Positions 36,872-63,086 of a DNA stretch of 64,000 bases are shown here, one piece after another. Under the pieces are notes generated by a model. It did not search any database. It was not told the DNA's origin and saw nothing but the letters and a program-made list of their open reading frames with translations. The stretch is from Longimicrobiales bacterium (GTDB lineage Bacteria > Gemmatimonadota > Gemmatimonadetes > Longimicrobiales > Gaopeijiaceae). The position numbers and the translations under genes were made by a program. Position 1 is the first letter of the stretch. Every line of letters starts with the position of its first letter. Location: the NCBI GenBank assembly GCA_028278645.1, contig JANQDZ010000065.1, positions 1-64,000 on the forward strand. The letters are read 5' to 3'.

Positions 36872-36900
36872 TTGACGAAATGCCACCCCGGATCTAGACT
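36872..36900 (+). promoter_or_regulatory. Promoter of the histidine operon
   Basis: TTGACG at 36872-36877 and TAGACT at 36895-36900 with an ideal 17-base spacer. Transcription should start around 36906-36908, at or next to the ATG of the leader peptide at 36907. The leader would then be translated from a leaderless or nearly leaderless mRNA, which fits the absence of a ribosome-binding site before it. Confidence 0.7.
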
Positions 36901-36906
36901 CTTTCC

Positions 36907-36990
36907 ATGCGATATCAGGCGACGGTTCGGCACCATCATCACCATCACTCGACCCCGACGGGTCGTGTGGCGGAGGTGGTTTGCCCCTAG
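36907..36990 (+). CDS. hisL: Histidine operon leader peptide (27 codons, six consecutive His)
   Basis: ATG 36907 opens a 27-codon frame ending at TAG 36988-36990. It starts MRYQATVR, then CAC CAT CAT CAC CAT CAC at 36931-36948 encodes six consecutive His, and it finishes STPTGRVAEVVCP. The run of His codons, the position between a promoter and a terminator hairpin and the following complete his operon match classical his attenuation (E. coli HisL has seven His in a row). When His-tRNA is scarce, ribosomes should stall on the His codons and prevent formation of the terminator at 37019-37052. The peptide itself probably has no other function. Confidence 0.88.
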   Translation: MRYQATVRHHHHHHSTPTGRVAEVVCP

Positions 36991-37008
36991 CCAGAGCCTG
37001 AGCAAACC
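36978..37008 (+). promoter_or_regulatory. Upstream hairpin of the his attenuator
   Basis: GGTTTGC (36978-36984) pairs perfectly with GCAAACC (37002-37008) around a 17-base loop containing the leader stop codon. In addition GGTGG (36975-36979) can pair with CCACC at 37016-37020, which overlaps the foot of the terminator. These are candidates for the pause and antiterminator structures. The exact alternative folds need a folding calculation. Confidence 0.55.
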
Positions 37009-37018
37009 AAAATCCCCA

Positions 37019-37052
37019 CCGCGGCCCGTTCCCGACGGGCCGCGGTTTTTTT
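37019..37052 (+). terminator. his attenuator terminator
   Basis: CCGCGGCCCGT (37019-37029), loop TCCCG, ACGGGCCGCGG (37035-37045): an 11-bp perfect stem, followed by seven T at 37046-37052. hisG starts 14 bases later. The position between leader peptide and first structural gene identifies it as the attenuator. Confidence 0.9.
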
Positions 37053-37065
37053 ATGGAGAAGCAAA

Positions 37066-37929
37066 GTGTTACGCATAGCAATTCCCAACAAAGGCCGGCT
37101 CGCCGACCGAACCTTGATCCTCTTCGAGAAGGCGGGGTTGAAGGCAGATTCGAAGGTGGACCGAGCCCTGGTTGCCAACCTCGGATCGGAATTCCGGGCG
37201 ATCTTCGTCCGAGCCCAGGACATCTCCGAGTTCGTAGCCGACGGTGCGGCGGACCTCGGCGTCACAGGTGCCGATCTGGTGGCCGAGTCGGAACAATCGG
37301 TGGAGGAGCTTCTGGATCTAGAGTACGGGACGTGCCGTTTGGCGGTGGCGGTCCGGGAGGATAGCCCGATCCGGGGAGCCCGCATGATAGAGTCTGGCAC
37401 ACGAGTCGCCACCTCCTTCCCCCGGGTCACAAAGAAGTTCTTCGAAGGCCTCGGAATCCCCATCCAGGTGGCCCCGGTCTCCGGGGCAGCCGAAATCGCA
37501 CCCCACCTCGGTGTCGCCAACGTCATCGTCGATCTCGTTTCCACAGGATCCACCCTCAAGGTGAACGGCCTCAGGGAGGTGGAGACGATCCTCAATTCCT
37601 CAGCTTGGCTCATCGCCAACCGAGAAGCCGTGGAGGATCCCGAGAAGGGTGGGAGGATCACCGAACTGGTAACGGCCCTCGAGTCAGTAATCCGTGCACG
37701 ATCGAAGAGATATCTGATGGCCAACGTTCCGCGGGAGCGTTTAGAGGAGGTGAAGAAGGTAATCCCGGGCCTCTCGGGACCCACCATCGTGGAGATCCAG
37801 AACGGTGACGGGTGGGTGGCTGCCCACGCGGTGGTGGATGACGACCAGATCTACCAAACCATCATCCGGCTGAAGGCCCTGGGGGCCGAAGGGATTCTGG
37901 TTTCGACCATAGAGAGGCTGATGCCATGA
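37066..37929 (+). CDS. hisG: ATP phosphoribosyltransferase, long form
   Basis: 287 residues from GTG 37066 with TGGAGAAG upstream. LRIAIPNKGRLADRTL opens the protein and the PRPP loop region reads VNVIVDLVSTGSTLKVNGL. It has the C-terminal ACT-like regulatory domain (about residues 210-287, with KKVIPGLSGPTIVEI), so it is the self-sufficient, histidine-inhibited long form that needs no HisZ. It joins ATP and PRPP in the first step of histidine synthesis. First structural gene after the attenuator; hisD begins ten bases after its stop. Confidence 0.96.
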   Translation: MLRIAIPNKGRLADRTLILFEKAGLKADSKVDRALVANLGSEFRAIFVRAQDISEFVADGAADLGVTGADLVAESEQSVEELLDLEYGTCRLAVAVREDSPIRGARMIESGTRVATSFPRVTKKFFEGLGIPIQVAPVSGAAEIAPHLGVANVIVDLVSTGSTLKVNGLREVETILNSSAWLIANREAVEDPEKGGRITELVTALESVIRARSKRYLMANVPRERLEEVKKVIPGLSGPTIVEIQNGDGWVAAHAVVDDDQIYQTIIRLKALGAEGILVSTIERLMP

Positions 37930-37939
37930 GGCAAAAACC

Positions 37940-39235
37940 ATGAACCTCAAGATCGACAAGAACCTATTCGACCTGACCGCCCAGGAGACCCGGGACCTGT
38001 TCGACCGGAGACCCTCCGACGAACCCGAGCTCCAGGAGCTGGTACGGAAACTCCTGGGAAGAGTGCGAAAGGACGGCGATCGGACCCTTGAAGCCATGGC
38101 CCAGGAGTTCGACGGGGTGATCCTGGAGGAGATGGAGGTGCCCCGAGACCGTTGGGAGGACGCCCTCTCCGAGCTGAATCCCGAACTACGAAGCAACCTC
38201 GAACTGGCGGCGGCAAACATCCGGACTTTCCACCGGGCCCAGATCCCCGAGGAGCTGCAAGTTACAGTCCGACCTGGTGTTACCCTTGGTCGGCGGGCCG
38301 TTCCCCTTCCACGTGTGGGAGTGTATGCCCCCGGTGGGCGGGCGGCTTATCCGTCCAGCGTTCTCATGGGCGTTGTCCCGGCCAAGGCGGCAGGGGTGGG
38401 GGAAGTGATCCTCTGCTCCCCACCGGGCCCATCGGGCATGCCACCTCCAGAGGTCATGGCCGCTGCGGCCATCGGTGGCGCTTCCCGGCTTTTCGCCCTG
38501 GGAGGGGCAGGAGCCATCGGCGCCATGGCCTATGGAACCGACCAGGTCCCGGCTGTGGACGCCATCGTTGGACCGGGAAACCGATATGTGACCGAAGCCA
38601 AGCGACAGGTGGCAGGGGATGTCCTCATCGACTCACCGGCCGGGCCTTCGGAGGTCTTGGTCGTGGCAGACGCCGACGCCGACCCCCGACTCTGCGCGCT
38701 GGAGCTCATCTGCCAGGCAGAGCACGACCCGGACGCCGCTGTGGCGCTGGTCACCGACTCTTCAACCTTGATGGGGGCCGTAAGGAATGCGCTGGCTGCT
38801 GAGGTAGAGAAAGCCCCTCGCAGGGAAATCGTCGAGGCCGCCCTGGAGACCCAAGGAGCCCTGGTGCTCGCTGAGCGTTGGGAGGACGTTCTGGGTTTTG
38901 CACGGGACTACGCCGCCGAACACCTGGCCTTGTTCACCGCCAACCCGCGATCGGACATGGAGGCGGCGCAGACGGCTGGCACCGTCTTCCTGGGCCAGGC
39001 GGCGGCGGTGGCATACGGGGACTACATTACAGGAGCGAACCATGTCCTCCCGACCGGGGGACTGGCGCGCTCGTTTTCGAGCCTTTCCACGCTCCACTAT
39101 CTCCGAATGTACACATGGCAGGAGATCACAGCCGACGCGGCTTCAGCCATGAGTGAAGCCGTGGAAAGAATGGCGGAATCGGAAGGGCTTCCCGGCCACG
39201 CGGAAGCGGCCCGGGCCAGAAAACAAACCACATGA
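37940..39235 (+). CDS. hisD: Histidinol dehydrogenase
   Basis: 431 residues, typical HisD length. Landmarks: GRRAVPLPRVGVYAPGGRAAYPS, the NAD/dehydrogenase stretch GGAGAIGAMAYGTDQVPAVD, GPGNRYVTEAKRQVAG, DSPAGPSEVLVVAD, QAEHDPDA carrying the zinc-binding Gln and His, and GANHVLPTGGLARSFSSLS near the end. It oxidises histidinol to histidine in two NAD-dependent steps, the last reactions of the pathway. It lies between hisG and hisC, with a 57-base gap before hisC, the only sizeable gap in the first half of the operon. Confidence 0.96.
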   Translation: MNLKIDKNLFDLTAQETRDLFDRRPSDEPELQELVRKLLGRVRKDGDRTLEAMAQEFDGVILEEMEVPRDRWEDALSELNPELRSNLELAAANIRTFHRAQIPEELQVTVRPGVTLGRRAVPLPRVGVYAPGGRAAYPSSVLMGVVPAKAAGVGEVILCSPPGPSGMPPPEVMAAAAIGGASRLFALGGAGAIGAMAYGTDQVPAVDAIVGPGNRYVTEAKRQVAGDVLIDSPAGPSEVLVVADADADPRLCALELICQAEHDPDAAVALVTDSSTLMGAVRNALAAEVEKAPRREIVEAALETQGALVLAERWEDVLGFARDYAAEHLALFTANPRSDMEAAQTAGTVFLGQAAAVAYGDYITGANHVLPTGGLARSFSSLSTLHYLRMYTWQEITADAASAMSEAVERMAESEGLPGHAEAARARKQTT

Positions 39236-39292: not shown

Positions 39293-40372
39293 ATGACTCC
39301 ATTCCCCCGGGACGACTATCGCCCCCTCCGGCCTTACGATCCCGGCCGAATCCCGGCAGCGGTGGACCTGAGTGACAACACCAACCTTTGGGGAGCCCAC
39401 CCGGCCGCCATGGAAGTGGTCAGGAAAGCGCCGCCCGAGGCTCTCTCCCGATATCCGTCGGTCTACGGCTCGGCTCTAAAGGAAGCCGTGGCGGGAAAAT
39501 TCGGAGTCCCGGAGGAAAGCGTGGTTACCGGCTGCGGCTCTGACGATCTCCTGGATTCAGTATTCCGGGCCGCCACCCTACCCCCTGGGAGGATGAGCTA
39601 TCCTTCACCTTCCTTTTCCATGGTGAGGATCTTCGCCCGTATGAACGGGATGGAGTCGAACGCCGTGGACTGGCAGTTGGCGGAGGCCGATCCCGGGAGG
39701 CTCCTCCTGGACGAGCCCGATCTCGTCTACATCTGTAGGCCCAACAATCCCACGGGTGTCTCCCTGGACGGGGACTGGCTTCGTGGCCTACTGGCCCTTG
39801 GTGGGTCCGATGGCCCATTGGTAATCCTGGATGAGGCCTACGCCGACTTTTTCCAGGACAGCTTTCTGGAAGAGGCCCCTTCGTGGGACCGCCTCCTCGT
39901 CCTCCGAACCTTCTCCAAACTCTACGGGCTTGCCGGTTTGAGGGTGGGTTTCGCGGTGGGCCCCGAAGCCCTGGTCCGAGAGGTCGAGAAGTCGCGCGGA
40001 CCGTACAAGGTGAGTCAGGTGGCCGAGAGGGCAGCGGTAGCGGCGCTGGAGGACCATTCCGGTTGGGCGATGGCCACCAGAGACGAAGCCCTGGAAAATC
40101 GGGAACGCCTGGTTCGGGAGCTGGAGGTCAGGGGCCTCCACCCCATCCCCTCCGAGGCGAACTTCCTGCTGATCCCTACCGACCCCGCCGGCGCCGTGGA
40201 GGTCAACAACGCTTTGAGGGACCGGGGCGTCGCAGGGCGGCCGTTCAGAGGTCTTTCGGAGATCGGCGATGCCCTCCGGGTCACCGTCGGACCTTGGGGC
40301 ATGATGCAGCGATTCCTGAATGCCCTCGACCAGCTGTTCGAGACACCGGAGCCCGGGGGAACACCTTCATGA
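39293..40372 (+). CDS. hisC: Histidinol-phosphate aminotransferase
   Basis: 359 residues. Fold-type I PLP enzyme: VDLSDNTNLWGAHP at the start, GCGSDDLLDSVFRA binding phosphate, CRPNNPTGVSLDG, VILDEAYADF and the PLP lysine in RTFSKLYGLAGLRVG. It moves the amino group of glutamate to imidazole acetol phosphate. ATG 39293 has CGAGGA six bases upstream. Its stop overlaps the hisH start as ATGA. Confidence 0.94.
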   Translation: MTPFPRDDYRPLRPYDPGRIPAAVDLSDNTNLWGAHPAAMEVVRKAPPEALSRYPSVYGSALKEAVAGKFGVPEESVVTGCGSDDLLDSVFRAATLPPGRMSYPSPSFSMVRIFARMNGMESNAVDWQLAEADPGRLLLDEPDLVYICRPNNPTGVSLDGDWLRGLLALGGSDGPLVILDEAYADFFQDSFLEEAPSWDRLLVLRTFSKLYGLAGLRVGFAVGPEALVREVEKSRGPYKVSQVAERAAVAALEDHSGWAMATRDEALENRERLVRELEVRGLHPIPSEANFLLIPTDPAGAVEVNNALRDRGVAGRPFRGLSEIGDALRVTVGPWGMMQRFLNALDQLFETPEPGGTPS

Positions 40373-40962
40373 GGGTTTCTCTTTTCGACTACGGAGCCGG
40401 AAACCTCCATTCCCTGGCAAAGGCACTGGAGGCAGGCGGGGCCGGCGTAACGATCACTACCAGTTGGGATGAGGCTCTGGATCAAGACGCGCTGGTCCTT
40501 CCGGGTGTAGGATCCTTCGGCGCCGCCGTCCGGTCCTTGGGTGAGAGCCGGAATCGGATCCGGGAATCCCTGGAAGCCGGGTACCCTTGCCTGGGGATCT
40601 GCCTCGGGATGCAGCTCCTGTTCGAGTCGTCTGAGGAAGGAGAGGGGGAAGGGATCGGACTGATTTCGGGGAGCGTTCGACGACTCCGTTCCCGGATCGT
40701 GCCTCAGATGGGCTGGAATGATGTGAAACTCACCTCGGATCCCGTTTTTTCAGGCTTGGAGGGGTTGGTGGCCTACTACGCCAACTCGTTCGTCTGTGAG
40801 CCCCAGGATCCGGGTCAGGTCATCGCCACCACGAAGTACGAGGCGGAGTCCTTCGCCGCTGGGGTCCGGAAGAGGAGAACCTGGGGAGTCCAGTTCCATC
40901 CCGAGAAAAGTTCGGCTCCCGGTCTGAGGCTCATCAAGAACTTCCTGGGAGAGGTCTCATGA
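40369..40962 (+). CDS. hisH: Imidazole glycerol phosphate synthase, glutamine amidotransferase subunit
   Basis: 197 residues from ATG 40369, which overlaps the hisC stop. Class I amidotransferase triad: nucleophile Cys in YPCLGICLGMQLLF, and His-Glu in WGVQFHPEKSS. VSLFDYGAGNLHSLAKAL is the usual HisH opening and PQMGWNDVKL a family landmark. It releases ammonia from glutamine and channels it to HisF to form IGP and AICAR. The frame extends far upstream inside hisC, but only this start fits the family. hisA follows with a four-base overlap. Confidence 0.95.
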   Translation: MRVSLFDYGAGNLHSLAKALEAGGAGVTITTSWDEALDQDALVLPGVGSFGAAVRSLGESRNRIRESLEAGYPCLGICLGMQLLFESSEEGEGEGIGLISGSVRRLRSRIVPQMGWNDVKLTSDPVFSGLEGLVAYYANSFVCEPQDPGQVIATTKYEAESFAAGVRKRRTWGVQFHPEKSSAPGLRLIKNFLGEVS

Positions 40963-41672
40963 TCGCAGCACCGGCCGTGGATCTTCGCGAGGGAAGGTGC
41001 GTGCAACTCGTGGGAGGTATCCCCGAGGAGGAGAGGGTTTCCCTTCCCGATCCCGTGGCCCAGGCCCGCGACTGGTGGGATATGGGCTTCAAAACTCTCC
41101 ACATCGTCGACTTGGACGCTGCCCTTTCCCTCGGAGAGAACCGGTCCACCATCGGGAAGATCATTCAGAGCACGGAAGCCACCGTACAGGTCGGGGGAGG
41201 GGTTCGGGACCGGAAGGCGATACAGGAAACGCTGGCCCAGGGCGCACATCGGGTCATCATCGGGACCCGAGCAATCGACGACACACCTTGGCTCAAGGCG
41301 TTGGCTCAGGAGTATCCACATCAGGTCACGGTGGCGGCAGACATCCGGGAGGGGATCGTGCTGAGGCGGGGCTGGACCGAGTCCACGGATCTACCGGTGC
41401 AGGAACTCCTCGACCGCTTGGCACCCCTTCCCCTGGCAGGGGTGCTTTGCACCGACGTGGGTCGAGAAGGACGCATGGAGGGCATCGATCTTCCAGCGGC
41501 GACGGCAGTCATCAAAGGAACCACCCACCCCGTCTGGGTTTCCGGCGGGATCACGACTCTGGACGAGCTCCGGGCCCTGGATAGGGCGGGAGCCGCCGGC
41601 GCCGTGCTGGGAATGGCCATCTATACCGGCACCCTCGATCCAGAGGCGGTCGCCAGAGAGTTCGGATCATGA
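40959..41672 (+). CDS. hisA: Phosphoribosylformimino-AICAR isomerase
   Basis: 237 residues of a (beta/alpha)8 barrel. Catalytic Asp near the N-terminus in IAAPAVDLREGRCVQLVGG; second catalytic Asp in VLCTDVGREGRMEG. Phosphate-binding strands are VQVGGGVRD and VWVSGGITTLDEL. It opens the ribose ring of ProFAR to PRFAR. The start ATG overlaps the hisH stop and the stop overlaps hisB, so translation is coupled on both sides. Confidence 0.95.
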   Translation: MIAAPAVDLREGRCVQLVGGIPEEERVSLPDPVAQARDWWDMGFKTLHIVDLDAALSLGENRSTIGKIIQSTEATVQVGGGVRDRKAIQETLAQGAHRVIIGTRAIDDTPWLKALAQEYPHQVTVAADIREGIVLRRGWTESTDLPVQELLDRLAPLPLAGVLCTDVGREGRMEGIDLPAATAVIKGTTHPVWVSGGITTLDELRALDRAGAAGAVLGMAIYTGTLDPEAVAREFGS

Positions 41673-42205
41673 CAAGACTCAAAAGAGAGACCAAAGAGAC
41701 CACAGTCACCCTGTCCATCGATCGGAACGGCGGTGAGATCAGGGTGGACACTGGCGACAGGTTCCTCACCCATATGGTGGAAACCCTGGCCCGATATGCA
41801 GGGCTGGGGCTGGAGCTGGATGCATCGGGGGACCTCCGCCACCACCTGATCGAGGACGTGGGGATAAGCCTCGGCACCGCCCTCCGGAAGGAAACGCCCG
41901 AGACCGCCGCCCGATACGGGTGGGCGGCCGTGCCCATGGATGAAGCGTTGGCGGAGGCAGCCGTGGACGTGGGAGGTCGGCCCTATTATGTAGGGCCCCT
42001 GCCCTCTCGGTTGTACGAACACTTCCTCCAAAGCCTCGCTGTGAACATGGGGGCTACCCTTCACGTTCGAGTCGTCCGGGGGAAGGACAAACACCACATG
42101 GTGGAAGCCGCCGTAAAGGCATTCGGCCTCGCTCTCCGTCAGGCGCTGGAAGAGGGGGGCACGGTCTTCTCCACCAAGGGGTCGGTGACCTTGGAGGTCG
42201 AGTGA
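41669..42205 (+). CDS. hisB: Imidazoleglycerol-phosphate dehydratase, compact form
   Basis: 178 residues, about 20 shorter than the usual monofunctional enzyme and without the phosphatase domain of enteric HisB. Metal-binding motifs are present but shortened: [15 protein letters not shown] in place of the FFDHM motif, [15 protein letters not shown] where most bacteria have DLxxDDHHTVED, [15 protein letters not shown] and a closing FSTKGSV. The DLRHHLxED form recalls archaeal IGPDs such as those of Thermococcales. It dehydrates IGP to imidazole acetol phosphate. Histidinol-phosphate phosphatase must come from another gene; none is in this operon. Confidence 0.9.
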
Positions 42206-42384
42206 TGGTGTCAGTTGGGAGCCTTCACCGCCCGTTCCCGGAGGAAGAGTTGGCCGCGGAGGTCCGGGCTGGAGCGAGGGCCTGGCCTTTCCCGAGCGAA
42301 CTTCCAGGAGCGAAGCGGATGGCTGGAGAGCGAGGGGAACGGACCAGGTCCTCGCTCCACAAACCACGCGGCTCACGATGTTGA
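42205..42384 (+). CDS. Small open frame between hisB and hisF (uncertain)
   Basis: 59 codons from an ATG that overlaps the hisB stop (TGATG), ending seven bases inside hisF. This TGATG arrangement is typical of translational coupling, and the frame fills the only 170-base gap in the tightly packed second half of the operon. The product starts [16 protein letters not shown] and ends rich in Arg, Gly and Ser. No family is recognised. It may simply keep ribosomes running from hisB into hisF, or be a remnant. Confidence 0.35.
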
Positions 42385-43130
42385 GACCCCGGATCATCGT
42401 CTGCCTGGACGTGGACCACGGCCGGGTCGTGAAGGGGGTGAAGTTCAAGGGCCTCCGCGACGTGGGGGATCCGGTCGAGCTCGCTCGGCGCTACGAAGCC
42501 GAGGGCGCTGATGAGATCGTGTTCCTGGACGTCTCCGCCTCCGCCGAGGGCCGGGGGACCCTGTTGGCCACCGTCCAGCGGACTGCGGAAGTTCTCTTTA
42601 TCCCCCTGACGGTGGGCGGCGGGGTCAGGGAAGTGACCGACATGGGCGACCTCCTACGGGCCGGAGCCGACAAAGTCAGCATGAACTCTTCTGCGGTGGC
42701 GAGACCAGGACTGATCACTGAAGGAGCGGAGCTCTTCGGAAGCCAGTGTATCGTGGCCAGTATCGACGCTGCTCGGGAAGGTGACTCATGGCGGGCCTAC
42801 ACCCACGGCGGGAGAACCCCTACGGATCTGGACAGCGTCGAATGGGCCCGGCGCTGTGCGGAACTCGGGGCCGGAGAGATCCTTCTCACGAGCATGGATA
42901 GGGACGGCGTCCGAACCGGATACGACCTGGAGCTCACCCACCAGGTGGCGGACTCCGTCGCCGTTCCGGTCATTGCATCAGGAGGAGCGGGAGGAGCCGA
43001 CCATATCCGAGAGGCCTTCAATAAAGGGCAGGCTTCGGCAGCTTTGTTGGCCGGCATTCTTCATGACGGCCTCACCACAGTCGGTGCCATCAAGAAAGAG
43101 TTGGCCCAGGAGGGCGTGGAGATCCGATGA
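42378..43130 (+). CDS. hisF: Imidazole glycerol phosphate synthase, cyclase subunit
   Basis: 250 residues, (beta/alpha)8 barrel. Catalytic Asp pair: [18 protein letters not shown] and [18 protein letters not shown]. Phosphate loops are [16 protein letters not shown] and [13 protein letters not shown]. Together with HisH it turns PRFAR and ammonia into IGP and AICAR. ATG 42378 lies 172 bases after the hisB stop. The stop overlaps the hisIE start by four bases. Confidence 0.96.
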
Positions 43131-43804
43131 TCCAAAAACCAAAAATGACGGACCGAGCCCTCCGGACAATGGACGATCTGAGCTCCTTGAAGTTCTGGGA
43201 AAACGGCCTTCTGCCGGTGGTTGCTCAGGATCTGGGCACGGGATCGGTACTCATGGTGGCCTTCGCAAACCGGGAAGCTCTGGAGAGAACCCTCGAAACC
43301 GGGCAGATGCACTACTGGTCCCGTTCCCGCCAGGAGTTGTGGCACAAGGGAGCAACGTCCGGAAACTTCCAGAACCTGGTTTCCCTCCACGAGGATTGTG
43401 ACGCCGACACCCTCCTCGCTCTGGTGAACCAGGTTGGTCCGGCGTGTCACACCGGCGAGGCCACATGTTTTGGGGAATTGCCGGAGGAGGACGGGGACGC
43501 GTCCGACCCGGAAGCCGACGGCAACCTGGAATCCGTCCTCCCCGCTCTGTGGGAGCGCCTGGAGGATCGGGCACTTCGCCGTCCTGAAGGCAGCTACACG
43601 GTGAGGCTCCTGGAAAATGAAAACCTCCGCCTCAAGAAGCTGGGAGAGGAAACGGCGGAGCTTCTCACCGCCCTGGCGAAAGAGGACGGCCATCGGATTC
43701 CTGAAGAGGCCGTGGACCTGCTTTACCACCTGATGGTGGCGCTGAAGGCCGCAGACGTGACCCTGGATGAAGTCCTGACGGTTCTGGAATCCCGAATGGT
43801 ATGA
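43127..43804 (+). CDS. hisIE: Bifunctional phosphoribosyl-AMP cyclohydrolase / phosphoribosyl-ATP pyrophosphatase
   Basis: 225 residues. HisI part (about 15-125): [31 protein letters not shown] and [12 protein letters not shown] with the metal-binding Asp and Cys residues. HisE part (about 140-225): [32 protein letters not shown] and [13 protein letters not shown] with the acidic residues that hold Mg. It carries out steps 2 and 3 of histidine synthesis. This completes the pathway except for histidinol-phosphate phosphatase. The ABC exporter gene starts within its last four bases. Confidence 0.95.
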
Positions 43805-45600
43805 GTCTGGAGACCGAACTCCACGAAGAGGAGGCCCTGGGGAAGGCTTACGACGCCCGCCTCATGAAACGCCTCCTCAAGTACCTGGCACCTTATTGGT
43901 GGTTGGTTGGGCCTGCCGTACTCATCCTTGCCGCAGCCTCGGCTCTGGAGATCGTTGGTCCCTGGCTCACCAAAATCGCCCTGGATGAAGCGATCCCCGA
44001 CGGAAACGGACGCCTGCTCTCCTTCCTGGCTATGGGTTTCCTGGGCGCCATGGTGGTCAGCTTTTTCCTCCAATACACCCAGAGGATCCTCACCGCCTGG
44101 TTGGGCCAAAGGATCATGTACGATCTCCGAAAGGAGATCTTCGCCAAGCTCCAGAGGCTGGATCTGAGCTTCTACGACCGGAACCCGGTCGGCCGCCTCA
44201 TCACCCGTATCACCAGCGACGTCGAAACCCTCAACGAGCTTTTCGCTTCAGGAATCGTGACCGTCTTTGGGGACGTCTTCACGCTGACCTTCATCGTGGC
44301 GGCGATGCTCGGGATGGACTGGAAGCTGGCGCTGGTGGCATTCAGCGTACTTCCATTCGTCGCCTGGACCGCCTTCCTGTTCAGGGCCCGGGTGCGCAGC
44401 GCTTACCGGGACATCCGGGTTCGATTGGCCCGAATCAACTCGTTTCTTCACGAGCGTTTTACGGGTATCCGGGTGGTCCAGCTCTTCAACCGGGAGGAAA
44501 AGGACGCCCGGGAACACCACAGGGTAAACCTGGATTACCTGGAGGCCCATCTCCGATCCATCACTTACTACGCTCTTTTCTTCCCGGTCATCGAGCTCTT
44601 CACTGCCATCGCACTGGCCCTGATCATTTGGAACGGAGGAAGCTCGATCCTCGAGGGCACAGTAACCGTCGGCGTGGTCACGGCCTTTCTTCAGTATGCC
44701 GGCCGTTTTTTCCGACCGATCCAGGACCTTTCGGAGAAGTACAATCTTCTCCAAGGGGCCATGGCCTCATCCGAACGCATCTTCAAACTCCTGGACGAGG
44801 ATATCGAGATCCTCGATCCTAAGGCGCCGATTCCCCTCCCTGCCTCCACCCGAGGGGAGATTGAGTTCCGGGACGTCTGGTTCGCATATGCACAAACGGA
44901 GGACGGGGAACCGGATTGGGTTTTGAAGGGAGTGAGCTTCAGGGTCGATCCAGCCGAGAAGATCGCCGTCGTGGGCCATACCGGGGCCGGGAAGACCACC
45001 CTGGTCAACCTCCTCATGCGCTTCTACGAGCCCCAACGAGGATCCATCCTTCTTGACGGAGTGCCCATTCGGGACGTGAGCCTCAAGGACCTGCGGGACC
45101 GTATCGGCCTCGTACTCCAGGACGTTTTTCTTTTCAGCAGGGACGTGGGGTACAACATCCGCCTGGGCTCGGAAGAGATCGGAGACACACAGATCCAGAG
45201 TGCGGCTCGGCGGGTGGGAGCAGACCGTATCGTAGGATTACTTCCAAGGGGCTACGACCAACCTCTGGGAGAGAGGGGAGCCTCCCTTTCGGTCGGGGAG
45301 AGGCAACTCCTTTCCTTCGCTCGGGCCCTGGCGTTCGACCCGAGCATCTTGATCCTGGACGAGGCCACCAGCTCGGTGGATTCCGAAATCGAGGCTCAGA
45401 TCGAGGAAGCCACGAGCGAATTGATGAAAGGGAGAACCTCACTTGTCATCGCCCACCGTCTTTCGACGGTCCAAGGAGTGGATAGGATCCTGGTATTTCA
45501 CCACGGGGAACTGAGGGAGATGGGATCTCACCAAGAACTCCTGGACAGGGGCGGACTCTATGCCCGTCTCCATGAGCTCCAATTCGCACCAGCCGTCTGA
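43801..45600 (+). CDS. ABC exporter, fused membrane and ATPase domains (MsbA/BmrA-like)
   Basis: 599 residues. Six membrane helices within residues 30-320, then an ATPase domain: Walker A VGHTGAGKTTLVNLL, Q-loop VLQDVFLFS, signature LSVGERQLLSFARAL (Val in place of the second Gly of LSGGQ), Walker B SILILDEATSSVDSE and the H-loop IAHRLSTV. Such half-transporters act as homo- or heterodimers that export lipids or drugs. Its ATG overlaps the hisIE stop, so it is expressed with the his operon and probably under the same attenuation, although no link to histidine is evident. A GGGGA/TCCCC hairpin at about 45627-45641 follows the stop. Confidence 0.92.
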   Translation: MSLETELHEEEALGKAYDARLMKRLLKYLAPYWWLVGPAVLILAAASALEIVGPWLTKIALDEAIPDGNGRLLSFLAMGFLGAMVVSFFLQYTQRILTAWLGQRIMYDLRKEIFAKLQRLDLSFYDRNPVGRLITRITSDVETLNELFASGIVTVFGDVFTLTFIVAAMLGMDWKLALVAFSVLPFVAWTAFLFRARVRSAYRDIRVRLARINSFLHERFTGIRVVQLFNREEKDAREHHRVNLDYLEAHLRSITYYALFFPVIELFTAIALALIIWNGGSSILEGTVTVGVVTAFLQYAGRFFRPIQDLSEKYNLLQGAMASSERIFKLLDEDIEILDPKAPIPLPASTRGEIEFRDVWFAYAQTEDGEPDWVLKGVSFRVDPAEKIAVVGHTGAGKTTLVNLLMRFYEPQRGSILLDGVPIRDVSLKDLRDRIGLVLQDVFLFSRDVGYNIRLGSEEIGDTQIQSAARRVGADRIVGLLPRGYDQPLGERGASLSVGERQLLSFARALAFDPSILILDEATSSVDSEIEAQIEEATSELMKGRTSLVIAHRLSTVQGVDRILVFHHGELREMGSHQELLDRGGLYARLHELQFAPAV

Positions 45601-61223: not shown

Positions 61224-63086
61224 TCATCCCATCAGCCTCCGCTTGATGGCCCTCCCCACGAACCGAACCTGATCTTTGAGAGGGAGCCGCAGGAGGTTCG
61301 TCTTCACCACGCCCTCGGTAAAGAACGTCTTTCGTGAGTAGTCGATGGCCACGTCCACCAGGACCGGCTGCCCCGATTCAGCTATGGCCTTGGCCTGATC
61401 GATCACGGCAGGGATGTCTTTGTCGGAAGAGAGCTCGAGAAAGGCCACTCCCACCCCGGCGGCCAGGCTTTTGAGATCGTAGTCCGCCACACTGCTGGCC
61501 ACCTTCCGGCTGAGGGCCGTGTCCTGGAACTGGGCGATCTGAGCCAGTTCCTTGTCTCTCAGGACATACACCATCGTGCCGACCTCGGCTTGGGCGGCCG
61601 TCAGTATCTCCAGCCCCGTCATGAGGAAGGCTCCGTCTCCGGCCAAGGCGACGGTGGGAGAACCGGGCATGCCGAGTTTGGCCCCGATGGCGGCCGGAAC
61701 GGAGTACCCCATGCAGGAAAAATCCACCGGGGCGAGGAACTTCCCGGGGCTGTCCAACCTCAAGCACTCCATGGCCAGGAAGGTCCCGTTCCCACTATCC
61801 GTCGTGTAGATAGCTTCGCTACCCAACCGCTCCTGGAGGGTTTTGAGAAGGAGGGCCGGGGTCACCCTGGGGCCTCCCACGGTTCTGAGCCAATCTTTCC
61901 AGACGGCCTCATGCCCCACCCTGATACTCCGGCGAAGCTCCTGGTCAGGCCTCCGCTCCGACTCGCCGGCTCCTTCCCCTGCCCCGCCGGGACCTTCCAG
62001 CTCAACCAACAAAGCCAGGAGAAACTTTTTGGCATCGGCCTCGACGGTTACCTCCGCCGGGTAGTTCTTCTCAAACACGCCCGGGTCAAGGTCCACATGG
62101 AGAAGCGGACCGGGCATGGTCAGGCCATAGGAGCCGGTACCCACCTCGGCAAAACGACAGCCGACGGCTAACACGACGTCGCAGCTTTGGGCCACCTTCC
62201 GAGCAAACTTCGGCGCGGCCTCGCCGAATCCGGGCCAGAGAAAAAGCGGGTGCGTTTCCGGGAAAATGCCCTTGCCTTGGAAGGTGGTGGACACGGGGGC
62301 TTCCAGAAGTTCGGCCACCCTGAGCACCTCTGCCGTTGCTCCTGCCGCCCCGGCCCCGATGTAGAGGAGGGGGCGCCGGGCAGAAGCCAAAGCCTTCGCT
62401 GCCTCCTCCACGCCAGCGGAAAAGGCTGGAGAGAGATCCCCCGAACCGGTCCCGCCCGGGGAGTCGGCCCCAGCCTCCGGCGAACCTCCAGCACCATCAT
62501 CCCTCGGCGGAACCTCTGCAACATCATCCCCCGACATGACCTCCCGGTCGCCGTCCGTCGGCACCGGGCCAACTCCCGAACCAGACACCAGGTAGAGGTT
62601 GGCCGGAACCTCCACGAACACCGGCCCAGGCACCCCTTCCCGGGCCGTCCGGCAGGCCTCCCGTACGGTCCCGTACAGGTTCTCCGCCTTCATCACCAAA
62701 TAGCTGGCCTTCACCACGGGTTTAACCAGGGACTGCTGGTCCACGTCGTGGAGCTGGAAGGCGCGACCCGTGTCTCGACGGATCCCGCACCCGAGTACGA
62801 TCAGCGGGACATGGTCCATGTATGCTTCAGCGATCCCTGACATGGCGTGGGTGAGGCCTGCCCCCGGGACCACATTCACACATCCCAAACGCCCCGACGC
62901 CCGCCAAAGCCCGTCCGCCATAAACGACGCGCTCTGTTCGTCGGTCACCAGGACCGCGTGAACCGATTCGGACTCGGCTAGCGCATCATAGAGCTCGATG
63001 TTGTGGGTCCCTGGAATCCCAAAAGTGAAAGGGACCCCCTCGTCCTCGAGAGCCTGGACCACCACGGACGCTCCGGTCTTCTTCAT
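61224..63086 (-). CDS. ThDP-dependent enzyme of the acetolactate synthase superfamily
   Basis: 620 residues. N-terminal PYR domain with FGIPGTHNIELYDAL and the catalytic E50 in VLVTDEQSASFMADG. Central domain with LYIGAGAAG and LLHVDLDPGVFEKNYPAEV. C-terminal PP domain with VALAGDGAFLMTGLEIL; the Mg-binding pair usually written NN reads R-D (VLRDKELAQIAQFQ). An acidic, Gly/Ser/Pro-rich insert of about 55 residues (about 173-225) sits between the PYR and central domains. It is not a standard IlvB: no small subunit gene and no FAD-domain landmarks. Reaction unknown, perhaps a decarboxylase or carboligase. Its ATG overlaps the GMC oxidoreductase stop by four bases. Confidence 0.85.
   Translation of the reverse strand: MKKTGASVVVQALEDEGVPFTFGIPGTHNIELYDALAESESVHAVLVTDEQSASFMADGLWRASGRLGCVNVVPGAGLTHAMSGIAEAYMDHVPLIVLGCGIRRDTGRAFQLHDVDQQSLVKPVVKASYLVMKAENLYGTVREACRTAREGVPGPVFVEVPANLYLVSGSGVGPVPTDGDREVMSGDDVAEVPPRDDGAGGSPEAGADSPGGTGSGDLSPAFSAGVEEAAKALASARRPLLYIGAGAAGATAEVLRVAELLEAPVSTTFQGKGIFPETHPLFLWPGFGEAAPKFARKVAQSCDVVLAVGCRFAEVGTGSYGLTMPGPLLHVDLDPGVFEKNYPAEVTVEADAKKFLLALLVELEGPGGAGEGAGESERRPDQELRRSIRVGHEAVWKDWLRTVGGPRVTPALLLKTLQERLGSEAIYTTDSGNGTFLAMECLRLDSPGKFLAPVDFSCMGYSVPAAIGAKLGMPGSPTVALAGDGAFLMTGLEILTAAQAEVGTMVYVLRDKELAQIAQFQDTALSRKVASSVADYDLKSLAAGVGVAFLELSSDKDIPAVIDQAKAIAESGQPVLVDVAIDYSRKTFFTEGVVKTNLLRLPLKDQVRFVGRAIKRRLMG

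Follow-up and report, generated by a model that had tools for sequence, protein, structure and literature searches.

A putative histidine operon attenuator with a predicted leaderless leader gene in the Gemmatimonadetes

How does a bacterium of the Gemmatimonadota adjust transcription of its histidine operon to the supply of histidine? The 64-kb stretch of DNA analysed here (the window) raises this question, as a short frame with six consecutive His codons lies just ahead of hisG, and the start codon of this frame falls at the predicted 5' end of the transcript with no recognizable ribosome-binding site. Our preferred reading, to which we assign a probability of about 0.88 from sequence comparison and RNA folding, is that the region represents a ribosome-mediated transcription attenuator of the his operon, and that its leader gene is leaderless. 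The HisL-type attenuation recognized in the original prediction is supported by the comparison with relatives, in which leaders before hisG were found at 95 of the surveyed loci.

The leader region and the operon downstream of it

The elements of the leader region, all on the forward (+) strand, are:

36872-36877 (+): -35 element TTGACG; TTGAC is conserved in relatives
36895-36900 (+): -10 element TAGACT; most relatives have TAnnnT, at conserved spacing
about 36906-36908 (+): predicted transcription start (+1), on or beside the leader ATG, placed from the promoter position
36907-36990 (+): leader frame MRYQATVRHHHHHHSTPTGRVAEVVCP, 27 codons and the stop codon TAG, without a Shine-Dalgarno motif
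36931-36948 (+): six His control codons, CAC CAT CAT CAC CAT CAC
36937-36978 (+): hairpin 1:2, arms 36937-36955 and 36960-36978, which takes in His codons and sequesters the antiterminator strand
36957-37030 (+): antiterminator from folding, 36957-36974 paired with 37013-37030, with an apical hairpin 36977-36984/37002-37009
36977-37009 (+): hairpin TGGTTTGC/GCAAACCA around the leader stop codon; present also in the same genus (L002), not general
37018-37052 (+): intrinsic terminator, 13-bp stem 37018-37046 and T-run 37046-37052
37055-37059 (+): GGAGA, the Shine-Dalgarno motif of hisG as judged from the sequence

The promoter and the ATG at 36907 are present where they had been predicted, with a spacer of 17 nt between the -35 and -10 elements and with the ATG 6 nt past the -10 box, and the 27-codon frame with its His run was likewise recovered at the positions given above. 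The run of six CAY codons is the sole one in the window and was seen in none of 100 shuffles. The region thus has a short leader frame rich in codons for the amino acid of the operon and an intrinsic terminator between this frame and the first structural gene. The genes that follow, assigned by profile matches, are:

37066-37929 (+): hisG, GTG start, long form with a C-terminal domain (TIGR00070 and TIGR03455)
37940-39235 (+): hisD (TIGR00069)
39293-40372 (+): hisC (TIGR01141 best match, below the curated cut-off)
40369-40962 (+): hisH (TIGR01855)
40959-41672 (+): hisA (TIGR00007 best match, slightly below the cut-off)
41669-42205 (+): hisB, IGP dehydratase (NF002114 best match, below the cut-off)
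42378-43130 (+): hisF (TIGR00735)
43127-43804 (+): hisIE (NF002747)
43801-45600 (+): MsbA-like ABC exporter (profile match), overlapping hisIE by 4 nt

The order of the operon is hisG-D-C-H-A-B-F-IE followed by the exporter gene, and the genome from which the window derives has one hisG. In at least 15 relatives, a homolog of the exporter shares contig and strand with hisG and lies about 6-17 kb downstream of it, and control of the exporter by the his attenuator is plausible from this arrangement.

The DNA upstream of hisG was read at 110 hisG loci, comprising the own genome, 29 relatives and 80 further loci, and two automatic leader calls that were judged spurious (L057 and L123) were removed before counting. 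A His-rich leader frame was identified at 95 of the 110 loci, with 52 leaders in family f7, 29 in f1, eight in f2, four in f6 and one each in f4 and f5. Eight further leaders in additional genomes of families f1, f4, f6, f8 and f9, where the downstream sequence is different or unrelated, bring the distribution to eight families of the class. At least four His residues within nine codons are present in 93 of the 95 leaders, and the other two frames of the same DNA nearly always contain 0-2 His. The nearest named relatives of the hisG gene belong to Gemmatimonadetes metagenome-assembled genomes (86-65% identical), and in the nearest relative (HisG 86% identical) HYHHHH is kept and the promoter and its spacing are identical. 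Loss of the His run in close relatives, which the original prediction had named as contrary evidence, was not seen; the run survives.

Leaders are missing, among other loci, at contig ends, in genus g12, in a few single genomes, in family f3 and in f11, the last being the only other class sampled. A search for displaced leaders in the 3 kb before hisG was negative for family f3, genus g12 and two single genomes. In family f3 and in some genomes of family f6 (loci L066, L067, L230, L231 and L232), a divergent HisG directly follows a HisZ-like frame and has no His leader. Likewise, five f3 genomes (region set L239-L242, L246, L247) have no His leader in the 3 kb upstream, and none was found near hisG at the HisZ-type loci of f6. 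The attenuator and the HisZ-type regulatory form of the enzyme look like alternatives to each other.

The start of the leader gene

At 71 of the 95 loci, the leader start codon lies 4-10 nt past the end of a strict promoter, defined as five of the six positions of TTGACA, a spacer of 16-18 nt and TAnnnT; none of the 95 hisG starts is so placed. The mean distance from promoter to leader start is 7.3 nt, so that +1 is expected 0-3 nt from the start codon. A Shine-Dalgarno-like motif precedes six of the 95 leader starts, against a random background of 8.6%, and 20 of the 95 hisG starts. The two marks of a leaderless leader gene, a predicted +1 at or next to the start codon and the lack of a Shine-Dalgarno motif, are thus found together.

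We also considered the possibility that the attenuator is real and its leader gene is not leaderless, such that the transcript starts farther upstream and the frame is read from a weak or non-canonical ribosome-binding site. The promoter pattern taken alone occurs in the region at the chance level (two in 18 kb, with 2.5 expected), so that the motif by itself is weak evidence, and this speaks for the possibility of another start. However, the position of the promoter relative to the leader ATG, unlike the frequency of the motif, is conserved across relatives: in every relative that has a TAnnnT box, 5-10 nt separate this -10 element from the leader start, whereas among 997 other ATG or GTG codons of this DNA only one has a strict promoter so placed. 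Moreover, the Shine-Dalgarno motifs at the leader starts do not exceed the background level, and the his leader is the only frame in the 64-kb window that has the strict promoter pattern before it. We therefore consider a start farther upstream unlikely and favor the leaderless reading, for which the sequence evidence is strong. The original claim of initiation at the very 5' end, with no ribosome-binding site, is supported to within about 3 nt by the conserved promoter-to-ATG distance. In three of the his leaders (L026, L092 and L098), the start codon at the predicted 5' end appears to be GTG; initiation there would be of the leaderless GUG type.

Three alternative structures of the leader RNA

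The whole leader region folds much better than shuffled sequence (z = -6.1). The RNA was folded stage by stage, as it would exist at each state of ribosome position and transcription, and the mutually exclusive hairpins sought here came out as three exclusive states keyed to the position of the ribosome. With no ribosome, the His codons are part of the long hairpin 1:2, which leaves the 5' arm of the terminator free, such that the terminator can form. With the RNA masked up to 36945-36957, mimicking a stalled ribosome, the antiterminator forms at about -39.8 kcal/mol by using the 5' arm of the terminator before the 3' arm is made, and the predicted hairpin TGGTTTGC/GCAAACCA (36977-36984/37002-37009) is found nested inside it. 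With the ribosome at the stop codon, the terminator alone can form (-27.1). Within the window, folding thus yields an antiterminator that excludes the terminator depending on where the ribosome is; comparative support for this feature is modest in close families and mixed in distant ones. In the full-length RNA, the terminator form is more stable than the antiterminator form (-46.0 versus -40.1), and the antiterminator would therefore have to form ahead of it to take effect, as is the case in other attenuators. The terminator with its seven T residues is present as originally described, except that the stem consists of 13 bp with a 3-nt loop rather than 11 bp, and that 13 rather than 14 bases separate the T-run from the GTG of hisG at 37066.

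The three structures derive from folding, and we infer coupling, stalling and read-through from the known enteric mechanism. Transcription would start at the ATG of position 36907 or at most about 3 nt from it, and a ribosome would load on the 5'-terminal start codon with no need of a Shine-Dalgarno motif and trail the RNA polymerase. If charged tRNA-His is scarce, the ribosome would stall on the codons at 36931-36948 and open hairpin 1:2, and the freed strand 36957-36974 would then pair with the 5' arm of the terminator (37013-37030) before the 3' arm exists. The antiterminator once formed, the polymerase would read into hisG. If histidine is plentiful, the ribosome would reach the stop codon at 36988-36990 and cover the antiterminator strand, and the terminator at 37018-37052 would halt transcription. 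If the leader is not translated at all, hairpin 1:2 would form first and the terminator would win again. Under this model, the his operon should be transcribed only under histidine shortage.

An alignment of the relatives that was built without structure information contains three conserved blocks: GACGGGYCG in the leader strand, CGGCCCGTC as the 5' arm of the terminator and GACGGGCCG as its 3' arm. For the 5' arm there are thus two possible partners that are nearly identical, as a switch requires. A test of duplex energies in the main set, pairing each leader strand with its own or swapped terminator arms, gave no separation (p 0.34), as the GACGGG/CCCGTC core is nearly invariant and makes such a test non-discriminating; column-wise pair counts were used in its place. 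The terminator pairs are kept in 99% of the cells, and 24 cells show double changes versus 3.2 in shuffles (reached in 0 of 500). For the antiterminator, in which the leader strand pairs with the 5' arm, 83% of the cells are paired versus 37-51% when the strands are slid against each other, and double changes were counted in 29 cells versus 20.9 in shuffles (reached in 11 of 500).

The search for covarying stems that the original prediction suggested thus gave a divided answer: on the aligned sequences, the terminator is proven by covariation, whereas the antiterminator is supported, mostly by conservation, with weak covariation. There are telling single cases, such as ACAGG with CCTGT in L053 and GCGGG with CCCGC in L014 and L107, and in L003, which is outside the alignment and was inspected by eye, AAGGG occurs with CCCTT. 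In the divergent families, pairing between leader and terminator is good in L220, L226 and L062 and not convincing at other loci, and we therefore do not claim a conserved antiterminator in these families.

These patterns also bear on the idea that the His-rich peptide is functional in itself, for example in metal binding or in trans, with the terminator as a separate feature. Leader peptides that act in trans are known, as exemplified by peTrpL of S. meliloti (PMC7298713). Yet the leader is located directly before hisG in family after family, the spacing of the His residues varies, with interruptions by A, N, P, T or S, and the C-terminal part of the leader follows the RNA-pairing strand GACGGGYCG. 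This pattern agrees better with selection acting on codons and RNA than with selection on a protein, and we think it very improbable that the peptide is what matters. Direct sensing of uncharged tRNA or another ligand by a T-box or riboswitch-like element, with the small frame incidental, is the least credible alternative, since the His-codon frame is conserved and the other two frames are not, and since no Rfam family reaches its gathering threshold in the window, even if histidine T-boxes are common in the Firmicutes (PMC9413887).

Related leaders and implications for the Gemmatimonadota

Enteric his leaders are equipped with a ribosome-binding site, and their RNA has six pairing segments. 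The attenuator proposed here resembles enteric hisL (RF00514) in its run of His codons in a short frame, its mutually exclusive antiterminator and intrinsic terminator and its location ahead of hisG, but differs in that the leader has no Shine-Dalgarno motif, lies at the predicted 5' end and is associated with three switching hairpins. The RF00514 His_leader covariance model scores 17.2 bits on the leader (E 0.97), below the gathering score of 49. T-box identity was rejected, there being no gathering match and no T-box even among the weak Rfam matches.

The original prediction was right that his leaders are less often described outside the Proteobacteria, yet candidates in the Firmicutes have been published, namely in the Bacillus cereus group, Peptostreptococcaceae and Erysipelotrichales (PMC9413887) and upstream of hisS and hisZ in bacilli (PMC2965389). 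As described, these share with the present leader a His leader peptide (theirs with 3-5 His in a row), a terminator and an antiterminator, but belong to another phylum. In the literature searched, we found no description of leaderless initiation for the Firmicutes his candidates. For the histidine operons of Actinobacteria, one comparative study reported no conserved upstream RNA structure (PMC1262725). Leaderless leader peptides are known from Streptomyces, with leuL, trpL, ilvL, metL and thrL (PMC8079986), and from Sinorhizobium, with trpL (PMC7298713). As predicted here, these genes begin at the 5' end of the transcript and carry control codons of their pathway, but they serve other amino acids (Leu, Trp, Ile, Met and Thr in the former, Trp in the latter). 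A search for leader peptides, attenuation and leaderless genes in the Gemmatimonadota retrieved nothing relevant from a literature that excluded most subscription journals. Attenuation of his operons and leaderless leader genes are each known separately, and so is the mechanism; what appears to be undescribed is the lineage and the joining of his attenuation with a leaderless leader gene.

A second leader of the same layout was observed in the own genome (L194; G000:C18:10837-12333, reverse strand), about 280 nt upstream of leuA, where TTGACT-17-TAGCCT-9-ATG is followed by the frame MRLRNAREPNHCRALAIESWDRSGPLAVLLFSLLPLLLTLGAT with its stop codon and then by a GC hairpin and a T-run. Furthermore, Leu/Ile/Val-rich leader peptides, such as MPFALVLVLLLLVLLLSIPAQEGSAARAKTT ending at a stop codon, precede leuA in several Gemmatimonadota families (L253, L255, L257, L258, L259, L264, L265, L266, L193, L197 and L198). 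A T-run comes after these frames, in most cases together with a visible GC hairpin, and the leaderless promoter spacing is seen in some of them only. No Trp leaders were found before trpE, and no convincing Leu/Ile/Val leaders before ilvB. The last 3 kb of the window contain an acetolactate-synthase-like frame (61323-63077, reverse strand), which matches in two pieces.

We tentatively hypothesize, at somewhat less than even odds, that leaderless initiation is built into the his switch throughout the class, the distance from the -10 box to the ATG being held such that the 5'-terminal AUG takes up the first ribosome, which may couple to the polymerase from the first nucleotides, with no need for a ribosome-binding site or an upstream pause. 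The conserved promoter-to-ATG spacing across dozens of genera is strong sequence evidence for leaderless mRNAs in the Gemmatimonadota, and these loci form a natural series in which the coupling of a leaderless ribosome to RNA polymerase can be studied. Annotation of hisG can also be anchored on the leader, and the leader is usable for an RNA family model. Our findings provide computational evidence for his attenuation beyond the Proteobacteria and Firmicutes and a clear amino-acid switch for a phylum in which almost no gene regulation has been studied. This his switch is conserved across the greater part of a bacterial class and has apparently not been described there before.
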